Assembly: GCA_016931115.1 (NCBI GenBank)
Contig: JAFGFM010000092.1
Coordinates: 18,703 to 82,702, forward strand
From: Deltaproteobacteria bacterium
GTDB lineage: Bacteria > Desulfobacterota > DSM-4660 > Desulfatiglandales > HGW-15
DNA length: 64,000 nucleotides
Direction of reading: 5' to 3'
Shown one piece after another: positions 14,334 to 19,579 of the stretch. Below the pieces are notes generated by a model. That model had not been told where the DNA came from, ran no database searches, and worked only from the letters and a program-made list of their open reading frames with translations. The translations under genes and the position numbers were made by a program. Within the stretch, counting starts at the first letter, position 1. The number at the start of each line of letters is the position of its first letter.

Positions 14334-14367
14334 CTCTGGTCCCTGGCCCCTGGTCCCTAGCCCCTGA
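14334..14367 (-). repeat. Short CAGGG-type repeat in frame within pglX
   Basis: Coding-strand TCAGGGGCTAGGGACCAGGGGCCAGGGACCAGAG encodes SGARDQGPGTRE; same motif family as the IVP cassette ends. Confidence 0.65.
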
Positions 14368-16352
14368 AGAAAGCACCACTTTCTTTCCGTAGCGATAATA
14401 TGGATTACACGTAAGGGTTATTTCATTAAGCCGCACCTCGGGCGTTAGTTCATCCTGTAGATTATAGGCTACGATAAAGACGCGGTTATTCTCTTCCTCT
14501 AGTCTCTTCATTTCCAGCGTAACCTCCCGCCAATGCATATGGAGCATCTGGTAAGAGGCTACTAGAGTTGACTGAGGGCAATCGGATTTAATCAATGGAT
14601 GATAGGAAAAGCCCCAAGAAGTCTCGTATGAATCCCAAACTTTATGTGTAATGTTTTCGGCCTTAGAAGCTAATGAAATTATTTTTTCTTCAGAACACCA
14701 TAATAGAGGCATATTACTAACATTTCCTGGATTGTTTGCAACGGTTGGATTAATTACAAGCATCAAATAATGAACCAATTTACTATTCATGAATCCTAAC
14801 AAGTATTTTAGCTTCGAATCATCAGATTCTGGTATTGTAGGGCCATTAACATTTAGTACACTACCACATGGAAGATAACGTACATTGAACGTTGTCATGT
14901 TTAACAAAGTCCACGTTATTCCTGGTTTAAAAAAGTATTCATAATTGAATACTCGTCTACTCCATGATTTTGTATTTGGATCTCTTGGATTGTTAACAAC
15001 CCAATGCTTGATCTCAACACCATCATTTTCCCAATTTATAACTTGGTTACAATGACCAAACCACCGATCTCCAATACCACCCTTATTGTATGGGAACCAT
15101 TTTTTACTGGATGTTTTCGCATCTAGACTCGAACTGCACCCAGGTTCAAACTTATCAAGCGAAGGTTCATACCACTGACGTAAAAATCTTGCATCATCGC
15201 CTGTTGTCATTCCAGTTTTTGGAGAAAATTGTTTGCCAAGAGTGCCACTATTTTTAAATAAATTAAGAATACTCATACCAAGCCAATATGCAATTGGATA
15301 TCCAGGAATATTCAAATATTCACTTTGCTTGAAAGTGAAATGGCCATGTTTGCGATCTAAGAATAATTTTTCAATCAAGTCTGGGGACCTAACTTCAACC
15401 AGTTTTTCGAATAATCGGCGATATACAGCTATTGAACTATCTCTTGGTGTATTGTTTAGAAATACAAATGCAACCGTTCCAAAATCTGACCCAAAAATTC
15501 CTCGTCCAAGATGGATTAAAGAAGAGAAAGATTGTGATTTTATTAGTTTAAGGCGAAGCTTCTCAAATGAAGATAAAAACATCCAAGAAGGAAGGTTAAT
15601 CATCCCCCAAAAACCACCAGAAGTCGTCAGTTCTGTGGCTCTTTCCATAAAGCATGCTAATAGATCAGCTTTGCTATCTGAATAATTTATTTTCAACCAA
15701 GCTCCTAGATTAGCATTCATACCACCACTCCCCATATAGGGTGGATTAGTAATTACTACATGGTATTTGGGGCAAAGATAATCAGACTGTTTAAGTACTT
15801 TAATTACCTTATTATGGGTTTTTGAAAGGAAAAGATCTCCAGCAATACCCTTTACCTTAAGGCGGGTCGCAATACCTTCGATATCCTTCAGGGCTGGTTG
15901 TATTAAGGAGCCAAAATTATCTGCCTCTTCAAACTGGCGCAATGTCGTCTGGAACTGGGTTGTAAAAAGGTCTCTGCCAACCTTGTCCATATATGTTTCT
16001 ATCTCATCTTCTGAGAATTTTACATTTTCTAACACACATATATTTGGTTCGATGGGTTTAAAATCTGAATTTCTTCTCTGAATAAAACGCCTGTCTCTTT
16101 CACGCGCTTTCATGATAAGGGAGAAGGCAGCCAGTTCTCCGGCACGTTCGTCTATTTCAATACCATAGAGATTATTTTCAAAAATCTTCTGCGGAATTTC
16201 ATTGGCTTTATAACCCATTTCTTCATAAATGGAATACAAAAGATCAAAGGCATAGACTAGCATGTGGCCGCTTCCGCAGGCGGGATCACAAATTTTGATA
16301 TCCTCGGGTCTTTTGATGCGGAGGAAGTCCTCTTCGCTTGTAGTTGCGGAGG

Positions 16353-16775
16353 AGTTAGGGGTTAGGGGACAGGGGTTAGTCTTGATCTGAGAGCTCCCAG
16401 CATTTTGGAGATTTCTTTGAGTAGGGAGAGCATTTCCTGCGTTTGTTTCAGAGCAATATATTGCAGCCGCTGGGCGATTAGAATTTGCGTTTCCACTTCT
16501 GCCTTGGAGCCCTGTGCTATCGATAGAAAGTTCCTGAACTCCGCTGTCGAGTTGCGAGCGTGTCCCTCCGCTATATTGGATGGAATTGACACTGCCGCCC
16601 TGCGAATTTGATTGGTCAAACCGTAAAGCTCCTCCTTGGGAAACTTCTTGGTTGCTTGATATACAATCTCCACGAGATCCATTGCTTTCTGCCAAACGAT
16701 CAGATCCTGATAACTCTTCACTTCCATTATTGCCTCCGATTGTTTTACTAACCCCTGATTCCTGATCCCTGAAGT
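16353..16775 (-). mobile_element. Putative IVP-type insertion cassette inside pglX
   Basis: Interrupts an otherwise continuous PglX; perfect 11-bp inverted repeat CAGGGGTTAGT (16370-16380) / ACTAACCCCTG (16747-16757) within longer imperfect CAGGG-rich arms. Confidence 0.75.
16362..16727 (-). CDS. Four-helix bundle protein (23S rRNA intervening-sequence protein / Avd-like family)
   Basis: MEVKSYQDLIVWQKAMDLVEIVYQATKKFPKEELYGLTNQIRRAAVSIPSNIAEGHARNSTAEFRNFLSIAQGSKAEVETQILIAQRL; own SD in ATCGGAGGCAATAATG. Confidence 0.93.
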   Translation of the reverse strand: MEVKSYQDLIVWQKAMDLVEIVYQATKKFPKEELYGLTNQIRRAAVSIPSNIAEGHARNSTAEFRNFLSIAQGSKAEVETQILIAQRLQYIALKQTQEMLSLLKEISKMLGALRSRLTPVP

Positions 16776-17280
16776 ATCTGGTCGAATATAATACTCCATA
16801 CGGTCAATCAATCGGGAATTCGGCCGATTGAGCATCCAGAGCCGTCCCAAAGAATTCTCAACCAGATACTTCACTATCCAGTGTGGTGTAAAAAGCTGAG
16901 TGGCGGCAGGGATATTTTCAGGAGTTATTTTCATATTATTCTTCAGTCCCTCAAAAACTGCATCCTTCTTCTCTGAAATATAAAACTGGTATAACCAGCC
17001 TATTATCTCAACCTCCTGCCAGTCATCTTCAGGGATCTCACTCACAAGCCTTCTTATCATGGAGTCGGAATGTAGGAGATTATCTGGCAGTAAAAGCTCT
17101 GTCTCATCATTTACCTTTTCAAACAAGAATGGCATGGCATCATTCAGGGCGTTGCACTGGGCTATAAGAAGCATTTTATACAGCTCTGCTTCCTTTGACC
17201 CCTCCATCTTTAATTCAATAACCTTTTCCCTGTCCAGCCCCGGTAGATCCACATGCTCCGCATGTTTTAAGATATCAGGA

Positions 17281-17316
17281 ATATTATTCGTATCATTCGT
17301 GTTATCTGTGGTTGAA
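17281..17316 (-). repeat. Short AACCACnnATnACACGAA-type repeat in frame within pglX
   Basis: Coding-strand CAACCACAGATAACACGAATGATACGAATAATAT encodes STTDNTNDTNNI; resembles 13447-13475. Confidence 0.65.
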
Positions 17317-17645
17317 AGGACTCTGTAGCCATGCTCCAGAAACCCATGAATCTCCATATACCGGATAGCCACAAACCGGTTAAACCAGGTATAAGCCATG
17401 GCCTCCATTACCTGATCAAAACCTTTATTCTTTATCCTCTCTTCAAGCTTTTTGCGTTTTGATGCAACACAAATGGGAAATGGCTTATCACCTATAATGG
17501 CAATATCGCCCTTTTCAATAACTGGAGTAATATTTTCTTTCGTAAGGCCGTAATATGCCGCTCGGTCTGTTATGGCCTGTATAAATTCACGACGTGCCCT
17601 GGGGGCATATGATTTGAGTTTATTTCTGTTCATATGCTATTTGGA

Positions 17646-18236
17646 TTATCCCATCAACTTTTTAACAAGTCTATAAACAGTTGAACCATTTGTCCTGGGC
17701 CAGTCTTCACATGGAGGAGTATCCTTGGCCTCTGCTCGATCGATTGCATCCTGTATGCCCGGTTGAATTTTATGCACTTCCAGATGCCCCTTTTCAAATT
17801 GCGGCAGATGCCGTTTAAGCCGTTGTGTGCAATCCTTTGACCCGGATACCCCCTTTCCATCTTCAAAATGGAGTAAGAGCCAATATTCAAACTGGGGATT
17901 ACTTACTGAAAGGTTATAGTGCGACACTCCGCAACCGAGGAATACTTCTTCCAATTGTTCTTCATCCCACTGATCCCGATCTATAACCAGCCATACCTCA
18001 TCCTCTTTTTTAAGCCCTTTTTCATCTACGAATTTCTTTGCTCTTCTAAGGGTATGCAGAGGAGAACTTTTATGTTTTATGGCCGGAAGCAGTTTTATGT
18101 GTATTGTGGTTTGAAGACTATTGAATATTCCAAAATATATAGGCTCTGTTCTTGCTCCTTCCGTTGCAATAAGAAAAAGCTTGCGATAATGAAGAGCAGC
18201 TTTTGGTCGTTTGAAAATCCGCTTTCTACCTGGCAT
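17646..18236 (-). CDS. RloB-like protein (AbiLii-like, Toprim-type fold expected)
   Basis: KLFLIATEGARTEPIYFGIF...VWLVIDRDQWDEEQLEEVF...NPQFEYWLLLHFEDG motifs; directly downstream of an AAA15 ATPase. Confidence 0.85.
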   Translation of the reverse strand: MPGRKRIFKRPKAALHYRKLFLIATEGARTEPIYFGIFNSLQTTIHIKLLPAIKHKSSPLHTLRRAKKFVDEKGLKKEDEVWLVIDRDQWDEEQLEEVFLGCGVSHYNLSVSNPQFEYWLLLHFEDGKGVSGSKDCTQRLKRHLPQFEKGHLEVHKIQPGIQDAIDRAEAKDTPPCEDWPRTNGSTVYRLVKKLMG

Positions 18237-19579
18237 CAGTTATTGCCTCTTTCCATATCAGTGTCTTCTGATCTTAATGCGCCGGAAATGAGTATTCGCG
18301 GAATTCCACCAAGCTTACCCTGAAGATAGCTTTTTCGAATATCTTTGTCATAACGTACATCTTTATAATCACTAAAGGCCAATAAAGAGGAACGCCCCTC
18401 ATTGTCCCGCTCTGTTACCCACATTTCATCTCTACGAAATAGCCGCTGATCCATCAAAAAAACATCATGGGTGGTCAACAATAATTGAGACCGGGTTTCA
18501 GGTGCACATGATTCCAGATATCCATTCAGTAATTCTCTGGTTAAAAGGGTATGCAGGCTCCGATCAATCTCATCAATGACAAATACTTTTTCGTTGCTAG
18601 ACGGGGCAAGTTCCAGAAAAGCCGGAATCAAATCAATGACACGTTGTGTTCCATCTGACTCCTGCTTCATATCAAAACGTATCTCATTTCCTGATGAATC
18701 ATTATGAAAGCTGACCAATTTTCGAGCTTCCAGTTCTCCATTTTTACGGACAATAGTAATTCGTTCACGTGTAGGTTCCACCAATAGGCGGACAGTAGCT
18801 CCTTCCGGGATTTCTTCTCGAAGTCTTGTCTTAAGATTTTCAGGTAAACCCAGATTATCAAATTCAACTTTTTCTCCACCAAGCCTCGAAATACCTGTGT
18901 CAAGATGACTTAGAGTCAGGTTCATATGGCCATATAATGGATTCTCCTCCTGAAAAAACCGTTCAAAAGGCTCAAAACGGCTATCCGGCGCTATCATAAC
19001 CAGACTATCTTTAAACCAGTCATAAATATGCTTAAATCTTTCAACCTTCTGGTTGACTGCATTAGTAAGAAATAACTGATTATCGCGGGTTCCCTGAAAT
19101 GCGAAATTAAGAAACTGGTCTTTTTTAAATTCAGTTGAAAATTTAATATCTCCTTCCTTGCGCCGATAAAGCTCTTTTTCAGATGTCTTTTGAATCTCTG
19201 TCAGCCACTCTTCAACTACACGATCACGGGTTACGCGGAAACCAAACTCATAGCAACAGTCATTAATATACAGCTCAAAGGATAAAAAAGTTGGTAATTT
19301 TAAACAGGAAGGGTTCAGCCTGAAGGGTTCTATAGGAATTATTGCCTCAGGTTGTGTGCCTTTGACCACAAATTGACGTGCAAAATTGAGCGCTTTAAAA
19401 AAATTTGTCTTACCTGATGCATTACCACCATAAATGGCAGCAATCGGTAATAATCGCATATTATATTTTGGGATGTGAGGCACTCGATCCAAGTGTTGTT
19501 TTTCACGGCTGGCAACCATAGAAAAAGTTACCTTAGACTGGAACGATAACCAGTTTTCTACAGAAAATGATATTAACAT
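18236..19579 (-). CDS. AAA15-family ATPase (RloA/AbiLi-like)
   Basis: [63 protein letters not shown]. Confidence 0.85.

Follow-up and report, generated by a model that had tools for sequence, protein, structure and literature searches.

A probable intervening-sequence-type element with inverted heptamer arms in the BREX methyltransferase gene pglX

REP/RAYT and MITE elements are small and hairpin-ended, some are without an ORF, and they are probably moved in trans. The 23S rRNA genes of some bacteria contain intervening sequences (IVS), of which that of Coxiella burnetii, 428 nt long, has three heptamers in tandem and a terminal stem of 28 bp that RNase III cuts (PMC4990558). Heptanucleotide repeats have been reported as TAACTGA in Beggiatoaceae and cyanobacteria (PMC4679880) and as GGGAATC/GGGGATT in Xanthomonas and Nostoc (PMC4692102); the available text of both papers leaves them unexplained, and that of PMC4692102 finds no general link with mobile elements. 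The IVP proteins of rRNA IVSs and the Avd proteins of diversity-generating retroelements (DGR; bAvd, PF22296) belong to a homologous four-helix fold family (PMC10053308).

The insert considered here resembles a 23S rRNA IVS in its IVP/S23 ORF, its length of about 430 nt, its stem-forming terminal inverted repeats and the heptamers beside the ORF, but it lies in a protein-coding defence gene, where RNA cutting leaves no working product. With the published heptanucleotide repeats it shares imperfect 7-nt arrays that often form inverted pairs, and these repeats look, from their sequences as given in the available text, like the same arms as those of IVP elements, one of which (L210 of Microcystis) has TAACTGA arms; unlike our reading, the available text of the two papers draws no connection between repeats and IVP. 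Elements of the pglX type are, like REP/RAYT and MITE, small and hairpin-ended, with some copies ORF-less; unlike REP/RAYT, no Y1 transposase is present in the element and the Y1_Tnp loci of the genome are without heptamer arms. No reverse transcriptase (RT) and no template/variable repeats were seen beside the insert, in contrast to a DGR.

The window (the whole stretch of 64,000 nt that was analysed) carries on its minus strand a BREX type 1 locus with BrxA, BrxB, BrxC, an RloA/RloB pair, PglX, PglZ and BrxL, and every member of the type 1 set (brxA, brxB, brxC, pglX, pglZ and brxL) was matched by the PADLOC models, pglX being split (Table 1). An RloB-like gene and an AAA ATPase, similar to an AbiLii/AbiLi pair, are nested between brxC and pglX at 17646-19579. 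The two parts of pglX are consecutive stretches of the BREX-1 PglX models, the N-part covering positions 1-297 of NF033452 and 1-283 of PADLOC PDLC02521 and the C-part positions 274-1210 and 299-1171, and they are separated by an insert of about 0.43 kb that contains an intact IVP ORF. A single ORF (16362-17633, minus strand) consists of the N-part fused in frame to the IVP (...RLIDRMEYYIRPDTSGIRNQGLVKQSEAI-MEVKSYQDL...), and the C-part picks up at SEEDFLRIKRPEDIKICDPACGSGHML in a different frame, offset by 2 mod 3. The model matches of both parts and their frames thus agree with the split and the offset given in a preliminary description of this DNA, which had also placed the break between the N-terminal region and the SAM-binding motif; the insert does lie just before motif I. 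The ends of the insert can be placed to within about 6 nt. The trinucleotide ACT occurs at both 16773-16775 and 16342-16344, possibly as a 3-nt target duplication, although this is a single case.

Table 1. Features of the split pglX gene and of its insert, with repeat tracts at the pglX linker of other lineages (positions in the window)
Feature	Positions	Strand	Description
pglX N-part	16776-17633	minus	about residues 1-286 of BREX-1 PglX; in frame into insert; NF033452 E 2.5e-112
5' arm of insert	16747-16775	minus	imperfect G-rich heptamers (TCAGGGATCAGGAATCAGGGGTTAGT); inverted repeat with 3' arm
Shine-Dalgarno (SD) of IVP ORF	16733-16737	minus	GGAGG; five nt ahead of ATG
IVP / four-helix-bundle ORF	16362-16727	minus	121 aa; ATG at 16727; PF05635, TIGR02436
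3' arm of insert	16350-16380	minus	CTAACCCC-type heptamers; inverted relative to 5' arm
pglX C-part	13519-about 16341	minus	motif I (from 16287) and remainder of methyltransferase
Second heptamer tract in pglX	14336-14366	minus	GGGACCA GGGGCCA GGGACCA; in frame; without IVP
pglX-linker tract, unclassified MAG			AATCCAA units, 36 nt
pglX-linker tract, Anaerolineaceae			AATT-rich, both orientations
pglX-linker tract, Chloroflexi RUG11948			CTCTCAG/AGCTATG, both orientations
pglX-linker tract, Microcystis			short, AGTGGGA

At the insertion site, intact PglX homologues read YYIKP-(4 residues)-DFL..ICDPACGSGHML, and across many phyla the linker of the homologues is short at this point (YYIKPEQAETDFLRISKPEEIKICDPACGSGHML or similar), so the insert is extra to pglX. 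The preliminary description had proposed a search for the empty site, which these homologues provide, and had held that its reading would fall if intact homologues shared the four-helix segment; the short linker was found in its place.

The ORF of the insert is a member of the 23S rRNA IVP protein family, with matches far above the curated cut-offs to PF05635 (E 2.8e-43; 146.9 bits against 33.8, Pfam) and to TIGR02436 (137.7 bits against 24, NCBIfam), and it keeps 16 of the 16 residues that are near-invariant among 105 IVPs. Together with the GGAGG ahead of its ATG, these matches bear out the earlier view of a four-helix protein of IVP type with its own SD. Relatives in the PDB (2GSC and 2RLD) were both entered with five chains, which is compatible, by analogy, with IVPs forming an Avd-like pentamer. 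As an Avd of a DGR the protein was rejected: it scores 42.5 bits against a cut-off of 80 with the DGR Avd profile, and the three RTs of the genome are on other contigs. A self-splicing intron was likewise set aside, the insert (locus L230) having no match to the intron RNA families of Rfam.

The insert contains the IVP ORF only, without a transposase of its own. In the sense of pglX, the heptamers of the 5' arm are TCAGGGA TCAGGAA TCAGGGG TTAGT and those of the 3' arm CTAACCCC TGTCCCC TAACCCC TAACTCC; the two arms form an inverted repeat of 24 nt that is 79% complementary, with an alignment score of 14 (the best of 2000 block shuffles reached 13). The minimum-energy RNA fold of the insert pairs the arms, and the stability of the fold as a whole is unremarkable against shuffles (z -0.56). 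A search of the rest of the genome and of 86 genomes from the order found no near copy of the insert (best match 67%), and no phage record encodes a match, so that carriage by phages is unsupported.

The second tract of pglX sits in a 17-aa insertion of PglX that is absent from all 15 aligned homologues. A search of the 5.18-Mb genome for (GGRRYYA)x3 at zero mismatches matched the 5' arm and the second tract, and nothing outside this pglX; with one mismatch allowed, the 3' arm and a single further site were also matched, and the reversed control pattern had no match. This shared dialect links the arms of the insert to the second tract and suggests, from the sequence, that the element either arrived together with this BREX island or was active inside it. 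Elsewhere in the window, an intergenic solo heptamer array (2636-2666; CCCTGCG / GGGCACA type) resembles in its dialect the IVP element L016 of the same genome. At precisely the linker that bears the insert, the pglX genes of four unrelated lineages contain in-frame repeat tracts without an IVP (Table 1; a strict period-7 threshold scores only the tract of the unclassified MAG, and the other three were judged by eye). The coincidence is most simply explained by a linker that is flexible and permissive. The inverted heptamer arms, the in-frame fusion of N-part and IVP and the second tract without IVP all go beyond the preliminary description.

The source genome contains about thirteen IVP genes and related genomes up to 24, and reading of their flanks showed nearly every one to be bordered by inverted short-period arrays, the unit of which differs from element to element (GGTGAAT, GAAGTGC, GCGCATA, AACCAGTT and others). 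We surveyed 105 distinct IVP elements from the order of the source genome and from other groups (Chloroflexi, Planctomycetota, Verrucomicrobia, Bacteroidota, Cyanobacteria, Cloacimonadota and Gammaproteobacteria), which are not independent, several being copies or orthologues of each other. Inverted arms, defined by a score above 13 for the alignment of the left flank with the inverted right flank, were present in 79 of the 105 elements, against 3 of 317 displaced windows and 2.4% of 536 control small ORFs; a period-7 arm was present in 55 of the 105, against 8 of the 536 small ORFs. Inverted arms were not detectable in the windows used for the other 26, a few of them (for example L001) because the window cut the arms. 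The 5' arms are G-rich and purine-rich, and the 3' arms the reverse. L014, L015, L017 and L018, which are weak, under the PF05635 cut-off and without flanking repeats, were set aside.

Flank similarity between elements is high only above about 55-70% identity of their IVP proteins. In spacers occupied in several genera (lexA, gmd-fcl and exopolysaccharide), the arms of an element match each other better than they match those of orthologous elements in the same operon spacer (median match 19 against 11.5), a pattern that indicates concerted change of the two arms of an element and that could come from hairpin-templated correction or from selection for pairing. Dialects differ among the elements of the lexA spacer (L032, L045, L047, L167, L190, L193, L197 and L198) and among those of the gmd-fcl spacer (L021, L025, L028, L029 and L184). 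The occupation of the same spacers across many genera reflects either a target preference or insertions that are old and whose arms have changed fast.

Several elements have further particularities. The IVP ORF of L174 (G057:C5) stays open across a long run of (PNK)n encoded by repeats and into a domain similar to hexapeptide acyltransferases, a natural fusion by way of the arm. Other multi-copy short repeats lie in two right flanks: that of L005 has a repeat of about 170 nt, of which G000/G001 contain some 20 copies, and that of L033 one of about 100 nt, which recurs in G049/G058 as dozens of partial copies about 35 nt long. The IVP family of genome G013 (L160-L166) has extra hairpins in or beside the arms (CTTCTCCAATTT..TTGGAGAAG; GCCCGCTACAAAAATGGCGGGC).

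Dispersed near-identical copies and empty sites were observed for the class of IVP elements, not for the pglX insert itself. Genome G013 contains at least seven dispersed copies, 86-95% identical over 380-590 nt and with unrelated flanks, in which arms and IVP are carried together; no target-site duplication was evident by eye in these copies. The median dN/dS of their IVP ORFs is 0.15 (one of 21 pairs is at 0.94), which argues that the IVP protein was selected during the spread of the element. Clean empty sites were found for two elements. One, of 520 nt, occupies the last codons of trpF immediately ahead of the trpB Shine-Dalgarno, is missing in a congener and, as in pglX, yields an in-frame fusion of host protein and IVP; the other, L199, is missing from a sister genome that is 94% identical. 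The empty sites of the pairs L004/L275 and L199/L271 are without any arms; at the orthologous sites L012/L274 and L033/L272, relatives have arms without an IVP. A proposed trans-mobilisation by arm-sharing Y1 transposases or RTs was discarded, the nine Y1/RT loci of the genome being without heptamer arms.

The same inverted heptamer arms surround L282 of an Azospirillum plasmid, a true insert inside 23S rRNA (Rfam LSU rRNA, RF02541). Since arms are common to the inserts of 23S rRNA (L282 and Coxiella), the pglX insert would work like an IVS, outside rRNA. Empty sites, dispersed copies, the anatomy of 23S rRNA inserts and the dialect-matched solo tract support the view that the insert in this protein-coding defence gene is a mobile intervening sequence, and we consider it likely that a selfish element of IVS type, in which inverted arrays of imperfect heptamers flank an IVP gene on both sides, jumped into the linker of pglX immediately ahead of methyltransferase motif I. 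Its IVP is presumably a pentameric nucleic-acid-binding partner that would recognise its own repeat dialect and aid the spread, the enzyme that moves the element being possibly supplied in trans. In RNA the arms could pair as a terminal stem, a potential substrate of RNase III like the stems of rRNA IVSs, but cleavage of the mRNA there would not restore pglX. Loss of the IVP may leave in-frame repeat scars, of the kind that PglX appears to tolerate at the same linker in other lineages.

PglX translation would enter the IVP and terminate there, so that full-length PglX would not be made. No start codon with an SD lies between the insert and motif I; upstream, the sole candidate start in the C-part frame is a TTG (16695) that lacks an SD, and the first ATG of the frame (16263) falls past the motif. 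As no plausible start precedes the SAM motif after the IVP stop, PglX function is likely lost and BREX-1 probably inactive. The same facts weigh against a functional split, in which the N-part-IVP fusion and the C-part act as a two-polypeptide PglX, or a switch in which excision reverts the gene. Both halves of PglX are otherwise intact, and the insert contains no stop in the C-part frame (as in 0.1% of codon shuffles and 2.8% of synonymous shuffles); this frame is however also open in 6 of 102 other IVP ORFs, and we rejected a selected open frame as not significant and only weakly unusual. Neither a recombinase nor a clean reversion was seen, and the copies found to lack the IVP retain their repeat arms. 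Such a split or switch is therefore improbable, and of the possibilities raised in the preliminary description the selfish mobile insertion stands, while the reversible switch and the working two-part PglX do not. A rescue at the level of RNA, by removal of the insert from the mRNA or by a frameshift bypass, is very unlikely: the arms can pair and rRNA IVSs are excised by RNase III (PMC4990558), but that excision is established to fragment the rRNA without religation, and neither a match to an Rfam intron family nor a canonical slippery site was seen.

The repeats could instead be primary: slippage and template switching at hairpins would produce the heptamer arrays, and IVP genes would tend to land or survive in these as passengers. 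Arrays without an IVP, at the PglX linker of other lineages, in G001 (L274) and in the second tract of this pglX, speak for repeats being primary, as do the Microcystis repeat sets, of which the available text of PMC4679880 reports 265 in strain NIES-843, far more than the single IVP found in G088. We nevertheless regard this as unlikely, given the clean empty sites without arms, the joint travel of arms and IVP in G013 and the purifying selection on the IVP during dispersal. An assembly chimera might be feared in a draft genome of 240 contigs without reads; it is hardly credible for an insert embedded in an 82.7-kb contig, with a dialect-matched solo tract 2 kb off in the same gene and an identical architecture across many independent genomes.

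Beyond a selfish jump into pglX, it is possible, as a tentative generalisation, that IVP genes with their cognate heptamer arms form a single, very widespread class of minimal mobile elements, of which rRNA IVSs would be a special case and TAACTGA, GGGAATC and similar repeats solo remnants, the IVP, as a relative of Avd, recognising its own dialect and recruiting a polymerase or reverse transcriptase in trans. The insertion in a coding gene and the general architecture of IVP and heptamers are new; no published link between IVP genes and heptamer arrays was found in a search that covered open-access papers and a minority of preprints. An IVP element with GGTGACA-type arms (L280, Anabaena sp. 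90 plasmid pANA02) lies between cas6 and cas4 of a type I-D cas operon, a position that may explain the reported CRISPR associations of IVP (PMC10910872). These observations take IVS elements outside ribosomal RNA, with one seen breaking a defence gene, and may offer a testable origin for the unexplained heptanucleotide repeats of cyanobacteria, Xanthomonas and sulfur bacteria. They also pose the question of function for a very common family that is named only "four-helix bundle protein".
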